DNA of 33,598 nucleotides, taken from an uncultured Bacteroidales bacterium. Its GTDB lineage: Bacteria > Bacteroidota > Bacteroidia > Bacteroidales > Muribaculaceae. Numbering within the stretch: the stretch's first letter is position 1; every line of letters begins with the position of its first letter. The position numbers were made by a program, and so were the translations under genes. Shown here one piece after another: positions 1,776-22,425 of the stretch. The stretch covers positions 1 through 33,598 of the forward strand of contig CASEAQ010000027.1 in the NCBI GenBank assembly GCA_949285735.1, read 5' to 3'. The notes under the pieces are model-generated. The model saw only the letters and a program-made list of their open reading frames with translations. It made no database searches and was not told the origin of the DNA.

Positions 1776-3298
1776 TTTTTATTTTTCACTTTCCTCAATA
1801 TCCCTTCGAGTTCAAACACTTTTTCGGGATATTTTGCTGCCACGTTTTCGCGTTCACCTGGCACAGTCATGTCATAAAGTTGCGGCGTGGGCGAATTTCC
1901 CAGTTCGGTATTGGTATTCTTCTGTATCTTGCGGCTGTCGTCGTTCGGCTCGATATATTTCCACTCCTTGGTTCTAATCGACAAAGTGTTGTTTGCCGCA
2001 TGCTCCACCACCCACGGACGATCGGTGCTGTCTGTTCCCAACAGGTTACCCAAACGGTCGAAACTGTCGAATGCGCTACCTTTGGGAATGCGGGCACCTG
2101 TGAGCGACGCAAGCGATGCAAGCCAGTCGATTTGCGACACAAGCACATCCGACACCTGTGGCTGCTTTATGCGGGCTGGCCAATGCACAATCACCGGCAC
2201 GCGAGTTCCGCCCTCAAACGTGCTATACTTGCCACCCCTCAAGTCGCCGGCAGGAGTATGCCCGTTGAGCAATTCCACTGCCCTGTCTTGGTAACCGTCA
2301 TCGACGACGGGACCGTTGTCGCTCGACAATATAATCAGCGTGTTTTCGGTAAGCCCGAGTTCGTCGAGAGTGCTCAATATCTGCCCCACGCTCCAGTCAA
2401 ACTGCATTATAGCCTCGCCGCGCAACCCCATCTTGTTTTTCCCACGGAAACGCTCGTGCGGGAAACGAGGCACATGAATGTCGTTGGTCGCAAAATACAT
2501 GAAAAACCGCTCGTTGCGATGCTCGTGCAAGTATGCCACTGCATGGGCAGTAATCGAGTCGGCAATATTCTCGTCTTTCCACAACGCCTTGCCTCCCCCC
2601 TTCATGTAGCCGATGCGGCTTATGCCGTTCACTATCGACTGGTCGTGCCCGTGGCTCGGCTTCAGGTTGTAAAGCAACTCAGGATTATCCTTTCCCGTCG
2701 GTTCGCCAGGGAAATTTTTCTCATAGCTCACATATATCGGGGCTGACGGATCGTAATTAGCCACCTTTCCATTTTCGATGAACACGCATGGCACACGGTC
2801 GGCAGTCGCAGCCATTATATATGAATAGTCAAATCCCAGGTCGCCAAGCCCGGCAGGCAACGGAGCATTCCAGTCCTGCTTGCCCGTCTCGGCTCCAAGT
2901 CCAAGGTGCCATTTGCCAAAAGCCGCCGTAGTGTAGCCCGCGCTCTTGAACATATCGGCAATCGTGTACTGCTCGGGGCGCACAATCATTCCAGCGTCGC
3001 CACGAGCGATGCCAGTGTCGTTGCGCCGCCAGGCATACTCTCCCGTCAACAGCGAATAGCGCGACGGCGTACTCGTAGCCGCAGCTGCATAACCATTGGT
3101 GAAACGTATGCCATTGTCGGCAAGCCGGTTCACATTGGGAGTCTCCACATTGCGTGCCCCATAACATTCAAGGTCGCCATAACCCAAGTCGTCGGCGTAA
3201 ATAAAAATCACGTTTGGCAATTGTTGTTTGTCGGTTTGTGCATATGCCGTGCCACAAGCCAAGGCGAACGACAACACTCCGATTGAAGAATTTCTCAT
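1769..3298 (-). CDS. Secreted serine-type sulfatase (S1 family)
   Basis: Removes sulfate esters, probably from host or dietary glycans in the periplasm. An N-terminal signal peptide (about 1-20, ending AYA) is followed by the metal-binding DD at 36-37. The active-site motif is S76-T-P-S-R80-Y-S-L-L-T-G. It is the Ser type, so the formylglycine must be made by an anaerobic sulfatase-maturating radical-SAM enzyme (anSME), not by the aerobic FGE acting on Cys. A C-terminal SSDNGP block supplies another metal site, and GGKYSTFEGGTRVP matches the family. The 509-residue length is usual. The sugar specificity cannot be read from the sequence. It is a single-gene unit with its own promoter at 3355-3362. 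The last codons and stop lie in the right arm of the inverted repeat at 1755-1775. Confidence 0.92.
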   Translation of the reverse strand: MRNSSIGVLSFALACGTAYAQTDKQQLPNVIFIYADDLGYGDLECYGARNVETPNVNRLADNGIRFTNGYAAAATSTPSRYSLLTGEYAWRRNDTGIARGDAGMIVRPEQYTIADMFKSAGYTTAAFGKWHLGLGAETGKQDWNAPLPAGLGDLGFDYSYIMAATADRVPCVFIENGKVANYDPSAPIYVSYEKNFPGEPTGKDNPELLYNLKPSHGHDQSIVNGISRIGYMKGGGKALWKDENIADSITAHAVAYLHEHRNERFFMYFATNDIHVPRFPHERFRGKNKMGLRGEAIMQFDWSVGQILSTLDELGLTENTLIILSSDNGPVVDDGYQDRAVELLNGHTPAGDLRGGKYSTFEGGTRVPVIVHWPARIKQPQVSDVLVSQIDWLASLASLTGARIPKGSAFDSFDRLGNLLGTDSTDRPWVVEHAANNTLSIRTKEWKYIEPNDDSRKIQKNTNTELGNSPTPQLYDMTVPGERENVAAKYPEKVFELEGILRKVKNKKN

Positions 3299-3354
3299 GT
3301 CTCGTTTTTATGGGTTTATGATAATAATTATTTTAAAGGCAAACTTTGCTTTTG

Positions 3355-3362
3355 CAAATTTA
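3355..3362 (-). promoter_or_regulatory. -7 box for the sulfatase gene
   Basis: Read on the minus strand this is TAAATTTG (TAnnTTTG). It places the transcript start near 3348, about 50 nt before the ATG at 3298. No clear -33 TTG was found. Confidence 0.5.
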
Positions 3363-3425
3363 AGCAATTTCTTCAGAAGCACCCCGTTTTTCCGTCCAAT
3401 AATTCAAGTAGGATATAAATAACGA

Positions 3426-3464
3426 CATAGGGAAGCCGCCAACACGCGTGGCGACCTCCCTATG
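3426..3464 (-). terminator. Hairpin downstream of fucO
   Basis: CATAGGGA (3426-3433) pairs with TCCCTATG (3457-3464), with an inner 5-bp stem CGCCA/TGGCG (3437-3441/3449-3453). It lies between the fucO stop and the sulfatase promoter, both on the minus strand. The following T-run is weak, so termination efficiency is uncertain. Confidence 0.5.
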
Positions 3465-3540
3465 ACTATTTTGCTTATACGAACTCTACCGCCCGACTTT
3501 GCACTACAGGCATTGGCAGCAATTCGCAGTGCAATATTTA

Positions 3541-4695
3541 TCAGAATGCCTTGTGATAAAGAGCCTCGATGTCTTCAACCGAAGTCGGACGCGGGTTGCC
3601 TCCCGTGCACACATCGTTGAACGCGTCGATTGCCAGCTGGTGCAAATCTTCTTCGCGAACACCTATCTCGTGCAGCTTTTGCGGAATGTTGATGCTCAAC
3701 GACAATGCGCGCACAGCCTCAACGGCAGCCTTCACGCCTTCAGCCTCGGTCATGCCTTCGGTGTTAACACCCATAGCCTTTGCTATGTTTATATATTTAG
3801 GTGCAGCTGGCGACTCGGCGTTGTATTCCATCACGTATGGCAGCAACAAGGCGTTTGCCACACCGTGAGGAGTGTCGTAGTGAGCACCCAGCGGGTGAGC
3901 CATCGAGTGGACGATGCCAAGCCCCACGTTGCTGAAGCCCATGCCTGCGATATATTGAGCTTGCGACATTGCCTCGCGAGCCACTGGGTCGTTGCCGTTG
4001 TCAACGGCAGCCTTCAAGTTGCCTGCAATCATTTCAATTGCTTTCAATTCCATCATGTCCGACATCACCCATGCACTCGGAGTGATGTAGCTTTCGATTG
4101 CATGTGTCAACGCGTCCATACCTGTGGCGGCAGTCAGCCCCTTTGGCATAGAGTACATCAATTCGGGGTCAACGATAGCCACGCATGGAATGTCGTTGGG
4201 GTCAACACACACCATCTTCTTCTTGGCTTCCTCGTCGATAATCACATAGTTGATAGTCACCTCGGCACCAGTTCCTGCAGTCGTGGGCAATGCAAACGTC
4301 GGCACAGCCTTGTTGTGGGTGTCGGCAGTACCCTCCAGCGAGCGCACGTCGGCAAACTCGGGATTGTTGACTACGATACCTATGCCCTTTGCAGTGTCGA
4401 TTGCCGAACCGCCACCCAATGTGACAATAAAGTCGGCACCCGAAGCCTTGAACGCAGCCACGCCATGCTGAACATTGGCGATAGTTGGGTTGGCTTTCAC
4501 GTCGGTGTAAACCTCATACGGGATATTGTTCTTGTCAAACACCTCTATCACCTTGTCGGCAACATGGAAACGAATCAAATCCTTGTCGGTCACAAAAAAC
4601 GCTTTTTTGAAACCTCTGCGCTTGGCTTCGATTGCAATGCTTTCGCGGCAACCTGCACCAAAGTAGGAGGTCTCGTTCAATATCATTCTATACAT
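3541..4695 (-). CDS. fucO: Lactaldehyde reductase (iron-containing alcohol dehydrogenase)
   Basis: NAD-dependent, Fe2+-containing dehydrogenase that reduces lactaldehyde to 1,2-propanediol at the end of L-fucose or L-rhamnose breakdown. The dinucleotide-binding GGGSAIDTAK lies at 94-103 and TTAGTGAE at 138-145. The four metal ligands expected for FucO are present: D194, H198, H263 and H277. H267 is a further conserved His. At 384 residues the length matches the family. No fucose isomerase, kinase or aldolase is beside it, so the exact substrate (lactaldehyde or another aldehyde) is inferred from overall similarity. The neighbouring sulfatase fits a mucin-glycan theme. The leader 4696-5038 is shared with the divergent recQ/uvrD gene; no exact -7 box was found for fucO. 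Confidence 0.85.
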   Translation of the reverse strand: MYRMILNETSYFGAGCRESIAIEAKRRGFKKAFFVTDKDLIRFHVADKVIEVFDKNNIPYEVYTDVKANPTIANVQHGVAAFKASGADFIVTLGGGSAIDTAKGIGIVVNNPEFADVRSLEGTADTHNKAVPTFALPTTAGTGAEVTINYVIIDEEAKKKMVCVDPNDIPCVAIVDPELMYSMPKGLTAATGMDALTHAIESYITPSAWVMSDMMELKAIEMIAGNLKAAVDNGNDPVAREAMSQAQYIAGMGFSNVGLGIVHSMAHPLGAHYDTPHGVANALLLPYVMEYNAESPAAPKYINIAKAMGVNTEGMTEAEGVKAAVEAVRALSLSINIPQKLHEIGVREEDLHQLAIDAFNDVCTGGNPRPTSVEDIEALYHKAF

Positions 4696-4924
4696 GGGTA
4701 TGTTGTTTTAAATTAGACACTGCCAAATTATAGAAAATATTCCAAATAGCCAAACTACGTCCATTAAAAAACCACAAATCCCTCACCCCCACACATTAAG
4801 CCCGTTCCGAGATGTAGAATACACAATCGCTGCTTGTCATTCCGAATCTCGTTCGAATGTGTACTAAAAAGCCCTAAAAATCAAAAGAAAACGATGTTTT
4901 TAACCGATTATTCAGTTTTATGTT

Positions 4925-4932
4925 TACTTTTG
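4925..4932 (+). promoter_or_regulatory. -7 box for the RecQ/UvrD fusion gene
   Basis: TACTTTTG matches TAnnTTTG. The predicted transcript start is near 4940, leaving a 5' UTR of about 100 nt before the ATG at 5039. This is the main feature recognised in the 343-bp divergent gap 4696-5038, together with the palindrome at 4975-4989. Confidence 0.5.
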
Positions 4933-4974
4933 CAGACGATATTTTGATGCCGTAAACGCATATACCTAAAAACT

Positions 4975-4989
4975 ATTGCATGATGCAAT
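4975..4989. promoter_or_regulatory. 15-bp palindrome in the 5' UTR of the helicase gene
   Basis: ATTGCAT-G-ATGCAAT has 7-bp perfect arms around one base. It lies downstream of the predicted transcript start and 50 nt before the start codon. It is shaped like a dimeric repressor site, but a chance palindrome cannot be excluded. Confidence 0.3.
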
Positions 4990-5038
4990 AACACATAACA
5001 TTCATAAAAAAATCAAAACATCTTCTTAATATCGAAAT

Positions 5039-8000
5039 ATGTCAATCTGGAAACGACTCATGGGAATCAAGGACACCGACGACACCCGCAATACCGTCGG
5101 CAACGCCGCCACACCCGTGTCATACGATTCCAGCCGATATGCCATGGTCGATGTCGAAGTTGGCTTTAACGACAAACGAATACACGACATCGGGGCACTG
5201 CGCCATGATGGGGCGACATTTCACAAGGCATCAAAAGAAGAATTGCTCGACTTTATTAGCAGCACCGACTTCATATGCGGACACAACATAATCCATCACG
5301 ATGCCAAATACTTGTTTGCCGACACGCCTTGCCGCTGGATTATGATAGACACCCTGTATGTCTCGCCGCTACTGTTCCCCGAACGCCCCTACCACAGATT
5401 GCTGAAAGACGACAAGCTGGTGAGCGACCAACTGAACAATCCCGTCAACGACTGCGAAAAAGCAAAAGACTTGTTGATGGACGAAGTTGCATGCTGGAAC
5501 TCGCTGCCCGACGGCAAGCGCAGGCTGTTTGTATCGCTGCTCAACGGCTATGAGGAATTTAATGGATTCCTGCGCTTCGTCGGCGCAGAGCAGCATATCA
5601 ACGACGACAACAACCAATTGGCTGAGCTGATAAGAAACATTTTTTCGGGGAAAATATGCCAACACGCCGACCTCGACTCGATAATCAAGCAATACCCTTG
5701 CGAATTGGCATACGCACTGGCATTAATCGACACCACCGACCACCGCTCAATCACTCCCGGGTGGGTACTGCACAACTATCCCGAGGTGGAATATGTCGTA
5801 AAGCTGCTGCGACACACTCCTTGCAACAGCTGCGAATATTGCAACACCCGATTAGACGTACACCACAACCTCAAGGCATACTTCGGCTACGACGGCTTCC
5901 GCACATACGAAGGCGAACCGCTGCAAGAGCGCGCCGCCAAGGCTGCTGTCGAGGGCAAGTCGCTACTTGCCATATTCCCCACTGGAGGAGGAAAATCGCT
6001 CACCTTCCAGCTACCAGCTCTCATGGCTGGCAACGCGGTGCACGGGCTTACGGTCGTCATCTCGCCATTGCAATCGCTAATGAAAGACCAGGTTGACAAC
6101 CTCGCCAACCGTGGCATCACCGATGCCGTGACCATCAACGGACTGTTAGACCCCATCTCGCGGTCTCTGTCGATACAACGGGTGCAAGACGGCGATGCTT
6201 CGCTCCTGTACATCTCGCCCGAAATGCTCCGTTCAAAGACCATCGAACGAATCCTGATTGCCCGCAACGTCGTGAGGTTTGTCATCGACGAGGCTCACTG
6301 CTTCTCGTCGTGGGGGCAAGACTTCAGAGTCGATTACCTGTATATAGGAAAATTCATCAGCGAATACCAGAAACAGAAAGGCTGCAAGACCCCAATTGCA
6401 GTATCGTGCTTCACTGCAACGGCTAAGCAAAAAGTGGTGCAAGACATCTGCGACTACTTCAAGCAAACGTTGAATTTAGACTTGGAGCTATTTGCCTCAA
6501 CGGCTTCGAGAACCAACCTCCACTACTCGGTGATACATTCCGAAACCGACGAAGACAAATACCAAAAGCTGCGAGAACTGATAGCAGAGTCGAATTGCCC
6601 CACCATCGTCTATGTGTCGCGCACCAAGCGCACCTTTGATTTGGCAAACAGGCTTACACGCGACGGCTACAAGGCTTTGCCCTTCAATGGAAAAATGAAC
6701 CCCGACGACAAGATTGCCAACCAAGATGCCTTCATGAACGACAATGCGCGCATCATCGTCGCCACCTCGGCATTCGGCATGGGTGTTGACAAGAAAGATG
6801 TGGGGCTCGTGATACACTACGACATCTCCGACTCGCTCGAAAACTATGTGCAAGAGGCAGGCAGGGCTGGTCGCGACCCGAGCCTCGATGCCCGCTGCTT
6901 TGTGCTTTACAGCGACAACGACCTCGACAAGCACTTTATATTGCTCAACCAGACGAAGTTGAGCATAAGCGAAATTCAACAGGTGTGGAAAGCCATCAAA
7001 GACCTCACCAAACAGCGTACCAAGGTGAGTTGCTCGGCACTGGAGATTGCTCGGCAAGCTGGCTGGGACGACTCGGTGACCGACATCGAGACCCGTGTAC
7101 GCACGGCACTGGCGGCACTCGAACAGAGCGGCTACCTCGTCAGGGGCAACAATTCGCCGCAAGTGTTTGCCACCGGCATCACCGTGAAAAATGTTGACGA
7201 GGCACGGGCTCGCATCTCGGCATCATTGCTGTTTGGTAGCGACGACATCGAAAAAGCCGTCAGGGTCATCAAGTCGCTCATTTCTCAAAAGTATATCAAC
7301 AAGGCACCCGAATCGCAGGCAGAATCGCGCATCGACTACCTTGCCGACATCTTGGGATTGAGCAAGCGCGAAGTGATTTCGGTCGTTGAACGAATGCGCC
7401 AAGAAGGCATTTTGGCTGATAGCCGGGATATATCGGCATACCTGTTCGATGCCGGTGACTCCGAACGTAAATCGCGGTCGCTGCTCACACGCTTTGCCCA
7501 GCTCGAAGAATATATCCTCAACCACATTCCCGACGGCTCGCTATGCACGTCATACAAGCAACTCAACGACAATGCCGTGAACGACGGCATAAGCACGTCA
7601 AAGGAAAAAGACATACGCACGTTGCTTTACTTCCTCACCATCAAAGGATACACTCGCAAAATAGCCGACACTGCGCAACACAACATCGAAATCAGCCGTC
7701 AAGCCAGCCTCGAAAACACCATTAAGCGTTTCCGCAAGCGGTTTGAAATAAGTTGCTTTGCAGTCGAATGGCTATACAAGCAAGTGGCAAACATCGAAAA
7801 AAAGCCAGGACAGGAAACCGCCTCAATACAGTTTTCGGTGGTCGAGCTGCTAAATTCGATAAAGTCGAGCCCCAAGAGCCTCTTCAGCGACATCGACGAA
7901 TTGCAACTCGAAGATGTGGAAGAAGCTCTACTCTATCTGTCGAAGATAGGCGCACTCAAGCTCGAAGGGGGCTTCCTCGTCCTTTACAACGCAATGAACA

Positions 8001-9946
8001 TTCAGCGGCTCAAGGACACCAAGTCGAGATACAAGCAAGACGACTACCGAATGCTCAACGAGTTTTACAAGCACAAGATACAGCAAGTACACATCGTGGG
8101 TGAATATGCCAACCTGATGGTTCGTGACTACAATGCCGCGCTGCAATACGTCCAAGACTACTTCCAAATGGACTACCGCAAGTTTATTGCCAAATACTTC
8201 AAGGGCAACCGCGTGAGCGAAATACAGCGCAACCTCACGCCCGAAAAGTATAAGCAACTGTTTGGGCAACTGTCGAAACGACAGATGGAAATCATCTCCG
8301 ACAAAGACTCGCATTGCATCGTCGTTGCCGCCGGTCCGGGCAGTGGCAAGACGCGCGTGCTGGTTCACAAGCTCGCCTCGCTGTTGCTGCTCGAAGATGT
8401 AAAGCACGAGCAACTGCTGATGCTCACATTCTCTCGGGCTGCTGCAACCGAGTTTAAGCAACGGCTAATGGGCTTGATTGGCAATGCCGCCCACTTTGTC
8501 GAAATAAAGACATTCCACTCCTACTGCTTCGACCTATTGGGCAGGATTGGCAACCTCGAAGATGCCAAAAACGTTGTCGCAGAGGCTGCCAAGATGATTA
8601 ACAACGGCGAGGTCGAGCCAAACAAGATTGGCAAAACCGTCCTGGTCATCGACGAAGCACAAGACATGGGAGCCGATGAACATGCCCTTGTGGAAGCTCT
8701 CATCACCAACAACGAGGAGATGCGTGTGATTGCTGTAGGAGACGACGACCAAAACATATACGACTTTCGCGGTTCAAGTTCACAGTACATGTACAAGCTG
8801 GCTAAAATGCCAGGAAGCCGCTTCATCGAGATGACCGAAAACTACCGCAGTACGCGCCATCTGGTTGACTTTGCCAACGGATTTGCACAAAACATCAAGC
8901 ACCGTATAAAAAGCACACCCATCATCTCGATGAGCGACGCCGACGGCTGGGTAAAAATTACACGACACCAATCAAAACACATCTATCAACCGCTTGTCAA
9001 CGAACTGATTCGCAACCAATGCGGAGGGAAAGCGTGTGTACTCACCCAAACCAACGAAGAGGCAGTAACTGTGATGGCTCTCTTGCGCCGGCTCGGCATA
9101 AACAGCAAGCTGATACAGTCGTTAGACGGTTTCCGCTTTTGGAACTTGGCAGAAACAAGATATTTCTTGAAATATATCGACACCCGTTCAACTACCCCGC
9201 TGATTCCCGAAAAATTGTGGGAAGATGCCAAAAGTGCCACCTTCAAGGCATATGACAGAAGCCAAAGCCTGACATACGTTAAACGCTGCATCGAACTCTT
9301 TGAACAAACCAACAAAACCCGATACAAAAGCGACTTCAAAGAATATGTGTTTGAATCGTCGGTAGAAGATTTCTGCGATATTTCGGGTGCCGATGTCGTG
9401 GTGTCAACCATCCACAAAGCCAAGGGGAAGGAGTTTGACGACGTGTATATGCTCATTTCCGACAACTACGCAAAAGACGACAATCTGATGCGCCGCTACT
9501 ACGTGGGCATAACCCGTGCTAAAAGCCGATTGTTTATCCACACCAATAGCGACTACTTCGATAATTTGAAAGCCGACAACTACAGCTCCGACTCAGTCCA
9601 ATACCCTATGCCCGAAGAAGTTGTCTTACAACTTTCACACAAAGACACCTACCTCGATTTTTTCAAAAAGCTGAAAAACAAAATCCTGACCATGCGCAGC
9701 GGCGATCTCCTGCACTTCGACAATTCGATATTGTACAATCCTAATACCAATCAACCTGTGGCAAAGCTATCCCGAGAAATGGAGAAAAAGTTGGCGGAGT
9801 GGAACACCCGTGGCTATAAAGTGACGTCGGCTTGCGTCAGGTTCATCGTCTCATGGAAATCAAAAGATGCACAAAAAGGCAACTCCGAAGTAGCAGTTCT
9901 GTTAGCCGACCTACTGCTCTCCCGCACGAATTCCCATGAACATTAA
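5039..9946 (+). CDS. DEDD exonuclease-like / RecQ / UvrD fusion helicase
   Basis: A 1635-residue protein with three modules. (1) Residues about 34-160 resemble a DEDD exonuclease: D38-x-E40, then HNIIHHD and a later NDCEKAKDLL block standing where HDALxDA is usual; activity is unproven. (2) A RecQ helicase: Walker A TGGGKS near 315-320, DEAH near 415-418 and QEAGRAGRD near 605, preceded by a CNSCEYCNTRLDVHH cysteine cluster and followed by winged-helix-like sequence near 770. (3) A UvrD/Rep superfamily 1 helicase: Walker A AAGPGSGKT near 1098-1106, DEAQD near 1205, GDDDQNIYDFRG, TENYRST, STIHKAKGKEFDD near 1455 and YYVGITRAKSR near 1487. Both motors look intact. It is probably cytoplasmic and acts on DNA ends, forks or recombination intermediates; anti-phage or RecBCD-like roles are possible but inferred. 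It stands alone with its own promoter and a terminator. Confidence 0.88.
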   Translation: MSIWKRLMGIKDTDDTRNTVGNAATPVSYDSSRYAMVDVEVGFNDKRIHDIGALRHDGATFHKASKEELLDFISSTDFICGHNIIHHDAKYLFADTPCRWIMIDTLYVSPLLFPERPYHRLLKDDKLVSDQLNNPVNDCEKAKDLLMDEVACWNSLPDGKRRLFVSLLNGYEEFNGFLRFVGAEQHINDDNNQLAELIRNIFSGKICQHADLDSIIKQYPCELAYALALIDTTDHRSITPGWVLHNYPEVEYVVKLLRHTPCNSCEYCNTRLDVHHNLKAYFGYDGFRTYEGEPLQERAAKAAVEGKSLLAIFPTGGGKSLTFQLPALMAGNAVHGLTVVISPLQSLMKDQVDNLANRGITDAVTINGLLDPISRSLSIQRVQDGDASLLYISPEMLRSKTIERILIARNVVRFVIDEAHCFSSWGQDFRVDYLYIGKFISEYQKQKGCKTPIAVSCFTATAKQKVVQDICDYFKQTLNLDLELFASTASRTNLHYSVIHSETDEDKYQKLRELIAESNCPTIVYVSRTKRTFDLANRLTRDGYKALPFNGKMNPDDKIANQDAFMNDNARIIVATSAFGMGVDKKDVGLVIHYDISDSLENYVQEAGRAGRDPSLDARCFVLYSDNDLDKHFILLNQTKLSISEIQQVWKAIKDLTKQRTKVSCSALEIARQAGWDDSVTDIETRVRTALAALEQSGYLVRGNNSPQVFATGITVKNVDEARARISASLLFGSDDIEKAVRVIKSLISQKYINKAPESQAESRIDYLADILGLSKREVISVVERMRQEGILADSRDISAYLFDAGDSERKSRSLLTRFAQLEEYILNHIPDGSLCTSYKQLNDNAVNDGISTSKEKDIRTLLYFLTIKGYTRKIADTAQHNIEISRQASLENTIKRFRKRFEISCFAVEWLYKQVANIEKKPGQETASIQFSVVELLNSIKSSPKSLFSDIDELQLEDVEEALLYLSKIGALKLEGGFLVLYNAMNIQRLKDTKSRYKQDDYRMLNEFYKHKIQQVHIVGEYANLMVRDYNAALQYVQDYFQMDYRKFIAKYFKGNRVSEIQRNLTPEKYKQLFGQLSKRQMEIISDKDSHCIVVAAGPGSGKTRVLVHKLASLLLLEDVKHEQLLMLTFSRAAATEFKQRLMGLIGNAAHFVEIKTFHSYCFDLLGRIGNLEDAKNVVAEAAKMINNGEVEPNKIGKTVLVIDEAQDMGADEHALVEALITNNEEMRVIAVGDDDQNIYDFRGSSSQYMYKLAKMPGSRFIEMTENYRSTRHLVDFANGFAQNIKHRIKSTPIISMSDADGWVKITRHQSKHIYQPLVNELIRNQCGGKACVLTQTNEEAVTVMALLRRLGINSKLIQSLDGFRFWNLAETRYFLKYIDTRSTTPLIPEKLWEDAKSATFKAYDRSQSLTYVKRCIELFEQTNKTRYKSDFKEYVFESSVEDFCDISGADVVVSTIHKAKGKEFDDVYMLISDNYAKDDNLMRRYYVGITRAKSRLFIHTNSDYFDNLKADNYSSDSVQYPMPEEVVLQLSHKDTYLDFFKKLKNKILTMRSGDLLHFDNSILYNPNTNQPVAKLSREMEKKLAEWNTRGYKVTSACVRFIVSWKSKDAQKGNSEVAVLLADLLLSRTNSHEH

Positions 9947-13203: not shown

Positions 13204-13557
13204 ATGCCTGCCGACATCAACCTGACGAAAAAATTCTACAAAATAAGCGAAGTAGCCGAAATGCTCCACCTGCCGCTGTCAACGTTGCGCTTCTGGGAAC
13301 AGGAGTTCAGCATCATCCGCCCCAAACGGAGCGACGGCAACACCCGCTACTACACCCCTCACGACATCGAGAACGTGAGGCTCGTGCAATATTTGGTGAA
13401 GGAAAAAGGCATGAGGCTCGAAGCGGCTCGTGCCGAAATCAACCGCAACCGCGACAATGTGTCGAAGCGTGTCGAAGTAATCGACCGCCTGCGCGAAATA
13501 AGAGCCCAGCTTGCCAACATCAAAGCCGCCCTCGACTCAATCCGCTTCGACCGCTAA
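13204..13557 (+). CDS. MerR-family transcriptional regulator
   Basis: A 117-residue DNA-binding protein. The winged-helix HTH opens it (FYKISEVAEMLHLPLSTLRFWEQEF, then the NTRYYTPHDIENV wing), followed by a coiled-coil dimerisation helix (about 70-115). There is no C-terminal effector or metal-binding cysteine cluster, so it is a minimal MerR whose ligand is unknown. I chose the ATG at 13204 over the TTG at 13117 because a -7 box spans the latter. Short proteins of this type are frequent in Bacteroidota. It is divergent from alaS with overlapping promoters, so it may regulate alaS or itself; this is inference. Confidence 0.88.
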   Translation: MPADINLTKKFYKISEVAEMLHLPLSTLRFWEQEFSIIRPKRSDGNTRYYTPHDIENVRLVQYLVKEKGMRLEAARAEINRNRDNVSKRVEVIDRLREIRAQLANIKAALDSIRFDR

Positions 13558-13572
13558 CCAGGGGTAAACACC

Positions 13573-14037
13573 TCACACAGGCAAATTCAATTTATTGACC
13601 AACAGCACATTGCTCTGCGCCAACCTTTTGCTTTGCACCGAGCCTCGCAATATGCAACACCTCCCCGAAGCCACCCAATAAAATGCCTTGTCGGCAGCAA
13701 TCTGTTTTAATCGTGGAGCTTTGTTCTCCAACCAGTTCTTAAGCCATTCGGCTTTCTTTATCACTTCTTTCACATTGCTTGTATCGGCAGGATGCACTTC
13801 CAAGAAATAAGCCTTGCCGTCATACCCTATCGCATAATCCCAGCGAGAAGCATTCGGATATAATGTGCTTGTACAGCCATCAATATCCACACTACCATCA
13901 ATCAATCTTGTATCTTTGGCACTTACGACCTGAGCATTACCACCCAAAGCCCTTAACCCTCCAGCATAGCCTTTTGCTATGTCGGGAGTTTCTTCCACCG
14001 CCTCTTTAAAAGTATTCCCCATACCATTATCTGCCAT
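13573..14037 (-). CDS. Unrecognised protein, possible PD-(D/E)xK-like nuclease partner of the ATPase
   Basis: A 154-residue soluble protein that I cannot place in a named family. The middle has a pattern like a restriction-endonuclease-type core: SVDIDG (49-54), WD67YAI, then a strand FLE80VH82PA, followed by a helix KKAEWLKNWLE (94-104). D67 and E80-x-H82 could be the acidic catalytic pair with His where Lys is usual. This is inference from spacing only. The C-terminus looks like alternating strands (FYWVASG, NVLLVNKL). Its ATG overlaps the stop of the upstream ATPase gene by 11 nt, so the two are translationally coupled and very likely work as one unit. No predicted membrane segment or signal peptide. 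Confidence 0.7.
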   Translation of the reverse strand: MADNGMGNTFKEAVEETPDIAKGYAGGLRALGGNAQVVSAKDTRLIDGSVDIDGCTSTLYPNASRWDYAIGYDGKAYFLEVHPADTSNVKEVIKKAEWLKNWLENKAPRLKQIAADKAFYWVASGRCCILRGSVQSKRLAQSNVLLVNKLNLPV

Positions 14038-15187
14038 ATAAACTAACTATTTCAGAAGACCTGCCGGCAAAACTCGACAAGCCACCCCATTCCGAAATAT
14101 CAATATCGTCACTAAAGGCATCCAGCGATGATATGTCAACAAACTTAACACCTCCCAACGCCTCATGCTGAGTTGAATAATATGTCTTGATTTTCCTGCT
14201 TTTCAACCCATTAAACAGATTGGCTGCCGTGCTATTATCATCAACATCAAACAATTTGTTCATGGCTTCCTTAAATTCCTCTTCTTCGAGATTGCATATA
14301 TTATTGAATGCCCACACAAATTCCAAGAATGTCGAAGAATGTGTCGATACGGCTACTTTATACCCATTTTGCATCAACTCAATAATTTCAAGCAATACCG
14401 ACAATATCGCACGAGGGTGAAGCCCCATTTCTGGCTCTTCAATAATTACCCACTGGTAATCGGCTTTATTGACAACACTTGATGGGAAATCAGACAAGCA
14501 ATATATGGCAAGCAGTAATGGCATAAATTCTTTTTGCCCTGCGCTCCAAGCCATAAAAGGAATCCTAAGCCCGTCAACTTCGAGTTTTATTTTTCGCTGT
14601 TCGCCCGACTTGTCGATAATCACTTTCCCATCATGGAAAATGGTTTCGTTTATAGAACTTTTCGCCATACCCTTCAATCTGTTACCCATAGGAAATATCA
14701 TATCGGAACTGCCCAACCCGCCTTGCATAAATATGCGCAATGTCTCGCTGAACATTCTTATAACGTATGGTGTAGATACATCAAACTCCATGAAATTCTT
14801 AGGGCGACCATCAGAAATGCTCAATATCCGCTGCGCTGGTATATAAAATACGGCTTCCTTTGACACGCGCTCTTGACTTGCAATAATTTTCAATAGGTCT
14901 TGTGGTGAAAATGGCTTACCCGAAAATTCAATCCGTGTGCCTTCGCTAAAAAGCCCGTGCAATCCCTCTCCAAAATACCAGTCAAGTATATTTCGGGAAT
15001 CAACTTCGCTCAATATATAATCATAGTTTCTTAAAGTGGAAACTATATGCCGCTTATCTATCAAAAGTTTCAATAACTCCAAAGCCAAACTTTTTCCACT
15101 GGCTTGCGACCCGATGAAAAATGTCAAATCGCCAAAATCTATCTGCGCCTCTTTTATCGGACCAAAGTTATATATATCTAAATTCAT
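14027..15187 (-). CDS. OLD/AAA_21-like ABC-type ATPase
   Basis: A 386-residue ATPase of the overcoming-lysogenisation-defect / AAA_21 kind. Walker A G26-SQASGKS33, an ABC-type signature block WSAGQKEF near 213-220, Walker B VIIEEPEMGLHP near 244-255, and the switch histidine in VSTHSS near 280. No C-terminal TOPRIM domain follows, unlike true OLD nucleases, so nuclease activity would have to come from a partner. The next gene overlaps it by 11 nt. Such ATPase-plus-small-partner pairs are frequent among phage-defence systems (Septu and PARIS are named examples); this pair matches neither partner type that I know. Both genes are more A/T-rich than the neighbouring genes, which suggests recent acquisition. 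Confidence 0.85.
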   Translation of the reverse strand: MNLDIYNFGPIKEAQIDFGDLTFFIGSQASGKSLALELLKLLIDKRHIVSTLRNYDYILSEVDSRNILDWYFGEGLHGLFSEGTRIEFSGKPFSPQDLLKIIASQERVSKEAVFYIPAQRILSISDGRPKNFMEFDVSTPYVIRMFSETLRIFMQGGLGSSDMIFPMGNRLKGMAKSSINETIFHDGKVIIDKSGEQRKIKLEVDGLRIPFMAWSAGQKEFMPLLLAIYCLSDFPSSVVNKADYQWVIIEEPEMGLHPRAILSVLLEIIELMQNGYKVAVSTHSSTFLEFVWAFNNICNLEEEEFKEAMNKLFDVDDNSTAANLFNGLKSRKIKTYYSTQHEALGGVKFVDISSLDAFSDDIDISEWGGLSSFAGRSSEIVSLYGR

Positions 15188-15209
15188 AAATAAACCATTT
15201 TACCGACAA

Positions 15210-15217
15210 CAAAAATA
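15210..15217 (-). promoter_or_regulatory. -7 box for the ATPase module
   Basis: Minus-strand TATTTTTG (TAnnTTTG). The transcript would start near 15203, about 15 nt before the ATG, giving one short-leader message for both module genes. Confidence 0.5.
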
Positions 15218-15239
15218 CTAAAAAAGTTCTCATTTTCAT

Positions 15240-15545
15240 ATTTTTCCACATATCAAAGAAATACATAGCAATATTTGTTTTTCAATGGAGTGATTTGGCA
15301 TTGCCCCACGACGTTTGCTTATCGTGTTTTACGAATTGCCCGGTTATAATTCCTCCGGTAAAACATTGATTATCACTCCAATAAATTCACAATTTTAGTT
15401 ACTGAGTAAAAATACTCATTCCACTGAGTAAAATGTAAAAACACATGCAAAGCAACAGAATATCAATCTATTACAAATAACACATTTTATCTAACATAAT
15501 ATATTTCGACGCATTGCTGTACGACTTGGAAGTTTTTACTTGGGG
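15240..15545. other. Gene-free A/T-rich region with nested inverted and direct repeats
   Basis: No credible ORF lies in 15218-15617. TGGAGTGAT (15286-15294) is inverted as ATCACTCCA (15372-15380). Inside it GTTTTAC (15326-15332) is inverted as GTAAAAC (15358-15364). Just beyond, ACTGAGTAAAA occurs twice (15401-15411, 15423-15433) with GAGTA/TACTC able to pair (15404-15408/15413-15417). The pattern could be an operator region, a small RNA, or the scar of an insertion accompanying the ATPase module. Confidence 0.45.
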
Positions 15546-15550
15546 GGGGG
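15542..15550 (+). repeat. G9 homopolymer upstream of a promoter
   Basis: Nine consecutive G in an A/T-rich context, about 45 nt upstream of the -7 box at 15586-15593. Tracts of this length slip easily; here it could vary promoter spacing context but does not lie in a coding frame. Confidence 0.6.
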
Positions 15551-15585
15551 AGCAGTTTTTCGCTCGGGGTTAGGGCTTTTTTCCG

Positions 15586-15593
15586 TACTTTTG
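15586..15593 (+). promoter_or_regulatory. -7 box for the ATP-grasp-like gene
   Basis: TACTTTTG (TAnnTTTG). Transcription would begin near 15600, supporting translation from the ATG at 15618 and excluding the TTG at 15540. Confidence 0.55.
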
Positions 15594-15617
15594 CGGCACG
15601 TTTTTTATGATGCAACA

Positions 15618-16835
15618 ATGACTGCCGACAACCGACACTATACATACATTTTCAATCCCGAACATGATTTGGCTCTTGCCTATGGCACCGAGGGCTATAC
15701 AGCACCGCCGCGGGCGAGGTGGCTCAGGCGCGACCTGCAAATGCTCCCGGCTTGGTATGGCAACAGCGGTGCCGAAATCCTATCGCAAAACCAAGCCGAA
15801 GACCACGAATGGCTGAGCCGCATGGGCGAGTTGATGGGAATCTCAGCTACTCCCGTCGCGCTCAACAAGTTACAATGCCGCAACAGCCAATATATTCCTT
15901 GGGGCTGGAATCTCGACCTGCGCCAACGCCTGCTCAACGCCTGCGTGCCAGCAAGCGACTTGCCCAGCCGCCAGCAAATCGTGGAATTGCAGGAATTGTC
16001 GCATCGCCGCATCTCGATAGAAATACTAAAATTGCTGAATGAAACTATCGACATGGCATATCTGCCACTACCGATAGAGGTGCACAGCGTTGACGAAATA
16101 CGCAGCTTCAACACACTCCACCCCGGCTGCTACATCAAAGCCCCCTGGTCGGGCAGCGGCAAAGGGGTTTACCGTGTGCTCGATGCCGACTGCCGCAGCT
16201 TCGCGACTTGGGCACAGGGCATCATCAACCGCCAAGGCTCGATAATGTGTGAACAGCCGCTCGACAAGGTTCTCGATTTTGCAATGGAGTTCGAGTGCAA
16301 TGACGGCAAAGCCCGATTTGCCGGATATTCGATTTTCTCGAACGACAGCCATTGCTCCTACGACAGCGGGCTCGTAATGCCCAGCCCTATGCTACAGCAG
16401 CTCATTGCCAAGCAATTGCATGGCAACACCTTGCTATTGGCACAAGTGCAGGAAGCCCTCGCGAAAATAATCACGCAACTCATAGCACCGCACTACACCG
16501 GCTACCTCGGCATCGACATGATGGTTTACAACGACAACGGCACAATGCGCCTAAACCCGTGCGTGGAAGCAAACTTGCGCATGACGATGGGCATCGTGGC
16601 ATCGTTCATCGCCGAGCGGCACATAGCCACCGGCACTGGCGCAACATTCCGCGTAACCTACCACAAATCGCCCGACGACCTCAAAGCATTTGCCAACAAC
16701 GAGAGCCGCAACAATCCGTTGCAGCTCACCGACGACGGGCTGATAGCCTCGGGATTCCTACCGCTAACGCCCATTTATCACGACAGCCACTTCCTTGCCC
16801 ACATCATCGCAGGCAAGGCGCACCGTCTGTTATAA
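15618..16835 (+). CDS. ATP-grasp-like protein, function unknown
   Basis: A 405-residue soluble protein. The centre reads like an ATP-grasp ligase: a nucleotide-binding strand/loop YIKAPWSGSGKGVYRVL near 171-187, an EQPLDKVLDFAMEFEC block, and a metal-binding C-terminal block NPCVEANLRMTMG near 313-325 in the position of the usual E-x-N. The N-terminus opens with FNPEHDLALAYG near 12-23, a motif I know only from Bacteroidota hypothetical proteins. The ligated substrates are unknown. The start is set by the -7 box at 15586-15593. It converges on the glycosyltransferase gene with only 15 nt between them and no terminator seen. Confidence 0.7.
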   Translation: MTADNRHYTYIFNPEHDLALAYGTEGYTAPPRARWLRRDLQMLPAWYGNSGAEILSQNQAEDHEWLSRMGELMGISATPVALNKLQCRNSQYIPWGWNLDLRQRLLNACVPASDLPSRQQIVELQELSHRRISIEILKLLNETIDMAYLPLPIEVHSVDEIRSFNTLHPGCYIKAPWSGSGKGVYRVLDADCRSFATWAQGIINRQGSIMCEQPLDKVLDFAMEFECNDGKARFAGYSIFSNDSHCSYDSGLVMPSPMLQQLIAKQLHGNTLLLAQVQEALAKIITQLIAPHYTGYLGIDMMVYNDNGTMRLNPCVEANLRMTMGIVASFIAERHIATGTGATFRVTYHKSPDDLKAFANNESRNNPLQLTDDGLIASGFLPLTPIYHDSHFLAHIIAGKAHRLL

Positions 16836-22253: not shown

Positions 22254-22254
22254 G

Positions 22255-22328
22255 CGCTTCAAGATGGACTTGAACCAACGACCCCCTGATTAACAGTCAG
22301 GTGCTCTAACCGACTGAGCTATTGAAGC
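22255..22328 (-). tRNA. tRNA-Asn (GTT), copy 2
   Basis: Minus-strand cloverleaf: 7-bp acceptor stem GCTTCAA/TTGAAGC, D-stem GCTC/GAGC, anticodon stem CCTGA/TCAGG with loop CTGTTAA (anticodon GTT), T-loop TTCAAGT, discriminator G. CCA is not encoded. The T-stem GTTGG/CCATC has one T-T mismatch, present in both copies. 74 nt, identical to the copy at 22352-22425. Confidence 0.95.
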
Positions 22329-22351
22329 AGTCAAACTAATATGAAAACCTG

Positions 22352-22425
22352 CGCTTCAAGATGGACTTGAACCAACGACCCCCTGATTAACAGTCAGGTG
22401 CTCTAACCGACTGAGCTATTGAAGC
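22352..22425 (-). tRNA. tRNA-Asn (GTT), copy 1
   Basis: Identical in all 74 nt to the copy at 22255-22328 and separated from it by 23 nt; it is the promoter-proximal gene. Anticodon GTT, discriminator G, CCA not encoded. The repeat unit extends slightly beyond the tRNA on both sides (period 97 nt), as in a recent tandem duplication. Confidence 0.95.

Follow-up and report, generated by a model that had tools for sequence, protein, structure and literature searches.

The window, by which we mean the whole stretch of 33,598 nucleotides analysed here, carries two overlapping genes on its minus strand: gene A (14027-15187), which according to open reading frame, profile and predicted-fold evidence encodes a 386-aa OLD/PtuA-like ABC ATPase (matched below to PDC-M56A), and gene B (13573-14037), which encodes a 154-aa protein with a predicted PD-(D/E)xK-type fold (D67, E80, H82, K95) and matches PDC-M56B. 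The 11 nt that the two genes share (14027-14037, minus strand) probably reflect translational coupling. Open reading frames and Pfam agree with the original prediction, which saw here an OLD/AAA_21-like ATPase devoid of TOPRIM and overlapped by 11 nt by a 154-residue protein. Neighbouring genes are alaS, a merR-type gene and an ATP-grasp-like gene (Pfam), much as expected from the housekeeping stretch that had been described, and the pair is indeed richer in A/T than its surroundings, with a G+C content of 0.40 (A) and 0.45 (B) compared to 0.54 for alaS, 0.54 for merR, 0.55 for the ATP-grasp gene and 0.505 for the entire window.

Upstream of A, a minus-strand spacer (15188-15587) is more A/T-rich still (G+C 0.335) and contains one TAnnTTTG motif (TATTTTTG) 30 nt ahead of the ATG. 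This single motif would partly agree with the previous proposal of one promoter for both genes; a clear -33 box was not seen upstream of A. In five relatives, TAnnTTTG recurs at 28-36 nt ahead of A, and it lies within 120 nt upstream in 7 of 23 loci (window included), as compared to a mean of 1.3 and a maximum of 5 loci after mono-nucleotide shuffling. Rfam gave no match at E≤0.1 between 15100 and 15700, and no direct repeat (≥11 nt) resembling a target-site duplication was found at both edges of the pair (13500-15700). The same spacer holds two ACTGAGTAAAA direct repeats (15401-15433), 22 nt apart and more than 200 nt upstream of A; what looks by eye like an inverted half-site lies between the two, and the arrangement is operator-like. 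It also holds a run of nine Gs (15542-15550), upstream of a TACTTTTG motif (15586) ahead of the ATP-grasp-like gene, whose expression the run could render phase-variable. Elsewhere in the window, we noted a plus-strand gene (5039-9946) whose 1635-aa product has DEAD/Helicase_C (RecQ-type) ahead of UvrD helicase domains and an N-terminus that resembles a DnaQ-type exonuclease by eye, as well as two tandem tRNA-Asn genes (22254-22425, minus strand).

Protein A is matched in Pfam by AAA_15 (1.3e-19) and AAA_21 (2.5e-14), and TOPRIM is absent from its five matches at E≤1. Walker A (G26-S33), the signature (SAGQ, 215-218), Walker B (E250/E251) and the H-loop (H283) do not vary among the 10 sequences aligned. 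A profile search against sequences of solved structures returned OLD (6p74, 9e-11) and PtuA, and the AF2 model of A (pLDDT 82.1, pTM 0.86) finds its closest Foldseek matches in PtuA of retrons I-A, Eco7/Ec78 and Septu, with retron Eco8, Rad50 and SMC heads also near and 249 matches at E≤0.001. Past H283 follow some 100 further residues with invariant D351-I-S and W367-G-G-L, a C-terminal part that lies past the point where the AriA profile match stops.

Protein B has no Pfam family at E≤1, and when sequences of solved structures were searched by profile its best match reached E 0.18. Its AF2 model, built on an alignment of 10 sequences, is confident (mean pLDDT 92.0, pTM 0.86) and shows an alpha-beta-beta-beta-alpha-beta core (helix 29-37, strands 46-51, 68-72 and 75-84, helix 86-105, strand 119-127), followed by helix 134-141 and strand 144-147. 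We take this order of elements to be that of PD-(D/E)xK enzymes. D67 sits just ahead of the second core strand in the model and E80-x-H82 on the third, and the original prediction had these residues where they are. Foldseek against the PDB gave 640 matches at E≤10, none at E≤0.001 and mostly with TM scores of 0.2-0.4, the best being Cdn1 (E 0.015, probability 0.94). The best 50 of the 640 include the bunyavirus cap-snatching endonuclease, N.BspD6I, PspGI, FokI, RecU, Hjc, AF1548, VC1899 and Can2, and about 44 of these 50, many of them repeated chains, are to our reading PD-(D/E)xK proteins. Another five we assume to lie outside the superfamily (LokiRagM twice, Vps33-Vps16, thioredoxin reductase twice), and XPB-Bax1 we assign to neither group. 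In a viral library, a restriction endonuclease came out on top (E 0.0096), again with no match at E≤0.001. PD-(D/E)xK nucleases such as Cdn1/Can2, N.BspD6I, FokI, RecU and Hjc are the best structural neighbours of B, albeit with weak similarity and with E-x-K where B has E-x-H.

Across 20 intact pairs (that of the window and those of 19 relatives, after exclusion of four in which parts are broken or missing), B shows a mean pairwise identity of 41% and a lowest one of 23%, yet W66, D67, Y68, Y72, F78, E80, H82 and K95 are invariant in 20/20. A Lys two residues past the Glu is not present in B, and all 20 carry His82 instead. Other residues at the Lys position are tolerated by known PD-(D/E)xK members, and His82, perhaps together with K95, may support catalysis in B. 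Because His82 replaces the motif Lys, we call B PD-(D/E)xK-like in its predicted fold, and for the same reason its activity is not assured. In sum, profile searches of Pfam and of solved-structure sequences gave no match for B and structure prediction a confident nuclease-like model. The idea of a PD-(D/E)xK-type core with His for Lys is supported by prediction (AF2, Foldseek), if through weak Foldseek matches.

When compared with PADLOC-DB v2.0.0, A matched PDC-M56A (7.3e-156, profile positions 3-376 of 382) and B the model for the adjacent gene, PDC-M56B (4e-59, positions 5-150 of 151); B had no other PADLOC match at E≤1, and NCBIfam offered no model at its cut-off for A or B. Judged by these profiles, the window pair is a copy of the catalogued two-gene defence candidate PDC-M56, with the same two-gene make-up, both proteins near full length and no difference evident, and the earlier claim of an undescribed system has to be given up. 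The PADLOC-DB fields examined give no function for PDC-M56. Our full-text literature search found no paper on it, a description in Krishnan et al. 2020 (reportedly a classification of ABC ATPases) being possible, and no experimental work on the A-B pair was found in the literature searched; the preprint behind the PDC set is said to be Payne et al. 2024. As far as these searches reach, PDC-M56 is uncharacterised. According to an excerpt of one report, PDC systems were gathered by ‘guilt-by-embedding’ and are mostly unvalidated (PMC12988326), and an excerpt of another describes how deletion of two other PADLOC PDC systems revealed no defence (PMC12409345).

Both genes travel together. A adjoins B at 22 of 23 relative loci, the exception being L048 with a lone, shortened B, and three further loci have decayed, with A in two frames in L051 and B broken in L056 and L058. 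In keeping with the co-occurrence that had been proposed for follow-up, of 393 genomes from the order, the nine that contain A (E≤1e-40) are also the ones that contain B. One B match (G434, E 7e-4, inside a 2086-aa frame) was judged to be a chance hit and excluded from the counts, which with it would read 4/61 and 10/393, rather than 3 and 9. Pairwise distances of A and B correlate over the 20 pairs (Mantel r 0.68, p 1e-4), and in the trees of both, the window groups with copies from Parabacteroides, Mediterranea and Bacteroides and the cyanobacterial copies fall together, the B tree having low support (3 of 17 inner branches ≥95). Since homologous pairs span phyla (Bacteroidota, Ignavibacteriota, Cyanobacteriota and a Verrucomicrobiota plasmid), and since B starts at the same 11-nt overlap inside A in 8 of the 19 intact relatives, pairing of A and B is more than chance.

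Their distribution is patchy. In a draw of 395 genomes across the phylum, B occurs in 6, counting the one that the window comes from, and in a cyanobacterial draw of 194 it occurs in 2 (one being the seed). B was found in none of the 8 genus mates and in a single one of 28 further genomes from the family; as genome completeness is 82-100%, such absence is not absolute. The ATP-grasp neighbour, in contrast, is present in 9/9 genomes of the genus. Comparison with relatives, as suggested originally, revealed an empty site in five of the eight genus mates: the interval 13558-15587 (to which no strand applies) is absent, merR adjoins the ATP-grasp gene, and alaS, merR and the ATP-grasp gene form an unbroken series that lacks the pair. 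For the remaining three, the 8-8.5 kb fetched show the ATP-grasp gene with neither alaS nor merR close by. So the pair is not conserved at this syntenic position in all relatives, and B matches no known non-nuclease family. While A is 72% identical to its Parabacteroides copy and 45% to the copy of a member of its own family (G409), the corresponding figures for AlaS are 67% and 74%, which implies that the pair does not follow its host. Another copy resides on a mobilizable plasmid of Opitutaceae TAV5, where A is 35% identical and B, unannotated, retains D67, E80, H82 and K95. Relatives of B were seen in 1 of 72,556 plasmid records and in none of 50,697 phage records; none were found in viral contigs either, which is weak evidence given that few patterns were used. 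Comparative genomics of this kind marks the pair as accessory and mobile.

How does the pair relate to known systems? PARIS (AriA plus AriB) likewise combines a stand-alone OLD-type ABC ATPase with a separate small nuclease, and the AriA model does match A (4.4e-24, PADLOC-DB), but A fits PDC-M56A far better and B is not AriB/TOPRIM. According to one report, the AriA hexamer of PARIS sequesters three copies of the AriB nuclease until a phage protein bound by AriA frees AriB (PMC12409363). Another puts PARIS forward as class 4 OLD, in which the ATPase and the TOPRIM each have a gene of their own (PMC10568477). Septu and PtuA-bearing retrons (PtuA plus PtuB) share the PtuA-like ATPase fold and the make-up of ATPase and small nuclease, yet B has no PtuB or HNH match by any model tried (Pfam, PADLOC). 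With OLD, Gabija GajA and the retron Eco8 effector, A has the ABC ATPase superfamily in common; OLD and Gabija, however, fuse TOPRIM to the ABC ATPase, whereas A is without TOPRIM and ends about 100 residues after H283. As for Lamassu, B has no LmuA match and LmuB is absent among the best 25 of 91 PADLOC matches of A. As had been predicted, B is thus a different partner from the ones in Septu and PARIS, with no HNH, PtuB or AriB match. Because the defining partners and domains were looked for and not found, we place the pair outside PARIS, Septu and Gabija, even though it would, by analogy, work like them. GajB is not found beside the window pair, but two loci from different species of one genus carry a gene for a 686-aa UvrD-like helicase (Pfam result for the L045 copy) 8-10 nt past B (L045:5586-7643, minus strand; L046:2764-4821, plus strand); A, B and this helicase may possibly form a three-gene variant of Gabija-like make-up.

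We moderately favour a model in which the pair is an ATPase-gated nuclease defence module, a copy of PDC-M56 whose A would sense and control and whose B would cut. Here, A, as a stand-alone OLD/PtuA-type ABC ATPase and probably as an oligomer, would pick up some sign of an invading phage or plasmid and control B. B, a small PD-(D/E)xK-fold nuclease (D67, E80, His82 at the Lys position and perhaps K95), would cut DNA or RNA when A permits, and cutting would destroy the invader or halt the host cell. The roles of A as sensor and gate and of B as effector are drawn by analogy with PARIS, the best precedent, and we infer oligomer, trigger, enzymatic activity, substrate and defence phenotype alike. 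In favour of this defence module are the PADLOC matches, the fold and invariant site of B, the invariant ATPase motifs of A, the co-occurrence of A and B and their correlated distances, the empty sites, the discord with AlaS identities, the plasmid copy and the copies in restriction operons or beside Septu-like and type III methyltransferase genes (see below). We count against it the weak Foldseek matches of B, the His in place of the motif Lys, the housekeeping neighbours, an undiscriminating neighbourhood test, the lack of B relatives in phage records and viral contigs and the two other PDC systems without defence. Linkage, co-inheritance, mobility, intact ATPase motifs, nuclease-like fold and invariant site come from sequence or prediction.

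Neighbours are housekeeping genes in the window and in many relatives. Several copies, though, keep other company. In L051, hsdS, the pair and hsdM stand in this order on a single strand, and genes for DUF5131 and RloB lie further out; in L010, an AAA_5 gene (PDC-M26A, 5e-47), A, B and a DUF2357/PDDEXK_7 gene follow each other with gaps of 60, 3 and 5 nt, the outer two being, we presume, McrB-like and McrC-like. In L045, a type III methyltransferase gene is found two genes away from A and one for PtuA three genes away from B. L009 has Septu-like PDC-M01A/B beside the pair, and within three genes of the pair are AbiLi (L002), a PD-T4-4_A-like ATPase (L004) and an HNH enzyme (L007). Two of these loci hold further genes of note. 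The PD-T4-4_A-like ATPase gene in L004 belongs to another ATPase pair (3276-5251, plus strand), being overlapped by 4 nt by a gene whose 232-aa product finds no counterpart in Pfam (E≤0.01) or PADLOC (E≤1e-5), and in L045 (9336-10883, minus strand) a 516-aa protein with no Pfam match at E≤1e-4 is encoded between A and the type III methyltransferase gene.

Altogether, a defence-type gene lies within three genes at no fewer than 7 of 23 loci, a count from hand-picked neighbours examined singly (ten in each of three scans). In an unselected comparison, 126 ORFs (≥120 aa, three nearest per side) of the 23 loci were set against 15 control regions of the same genomes, whose 124 chosen ORFs came down to 120 from 14 regions after four were dropped (three long ones and a partial one, the sole row of L066). 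At E≤1e-30, PADLOC matched 121 families in the case set and 73 in the control, without assignment to single proteins. Control matches probably come mostly, by a look at motifs, from L070 and from L073, which has Dnd-like genes and shares a contig with case locus L047, some 20 kb or more away. The comparison is not decisive and does not prove defence enrichment near the pair.

Such embedding has precedents: RloAB and PrrC are further genes found within type I restriction operons, and an excerpt of one study reports a pair of RNA-binding protein and AAA-like ATPase as well as DarTG2 between hsdS and hsdR (PMC12255303). The L051 copy is alike in sitting between hsdS and hsdM with the RloB gene further along, yet those protein families differ from A-B, and most A-B copies are not embedded. 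This brings up a narrower form of the defence module, akin to PARIS, in which A would recognise phage anti-restriction proteins and unleash B to back up a restriction system. Copies inside the type I and McrBC-like operons and near type III genes fit it, as does PARIS, which part of a report shows to be triggered by proteins such as Ocr (PMC12409363). We regard it as unlikely, with no restriction gene recognised among the window genes scanned nor at most of the 23 loci, and the embedded copies may simply have inserted where it was convenient.

Alternatively, B may be PD-(D/E)xK-like yet catalytically dead, binding either nucleic acid or A and leaving the work to A and another host nuclease. 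His for Lys in all intact pairs and the weak fold matches would agree with this, but D67, E80, H82 and K95 staying invariant down to 23% identity suits a catalytic site better than a scaffold, and to our minds a dead B is improbable. A role in DNA repair or mobile-element maintenance, instead of defence, could draw on the closeness of A to Rad50, SMC and RecN heads, on the housekeeping surroundings of many loci and on the plasmid copy; it seems rather improbable in view of patchy presence even within the genus, embedding in restriction operons and decayed copies at 4 of 23 loci. Finally, that B resembles PD-(D/E)xK proteins by chance alpha/beta similarity and that the biochemistry of the pair is unrelated, as the want of a Foldseek match at E≤0.001 and of a Pfam or PDB sequence match might suggest, is very doubtful with the core topology, D-x12-E-x-H at the right strands and some 44 of the best 50 Foldseek rows falling, as we assign them, in one superfamily.

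Going on with the ATPase-gated defence module, we tentatively entertain, at somewhat less than even confidence, that PDC-M56 represents a distinct class of split ATPase-nuclease systems, in which the TOPRIM or HNH effector of an OLD-type ATPase has given way to a PD-(D/E)xK nuclease whose D-E-H(-K) site is unusual, and which spreads between phyla and sometimes acts as a guard inside restriction operons. If true, the scaffold that OLD, PARIS, Septu and retron effectors have in their ATPases would be found with yet another nuclease fold, an indication of how freely effectors can be exchanged on this sensor. The invariant His at the Lys position and the further invariant Lys would offer a simple mutational test in a catalogued and apparently unstudied candidate.
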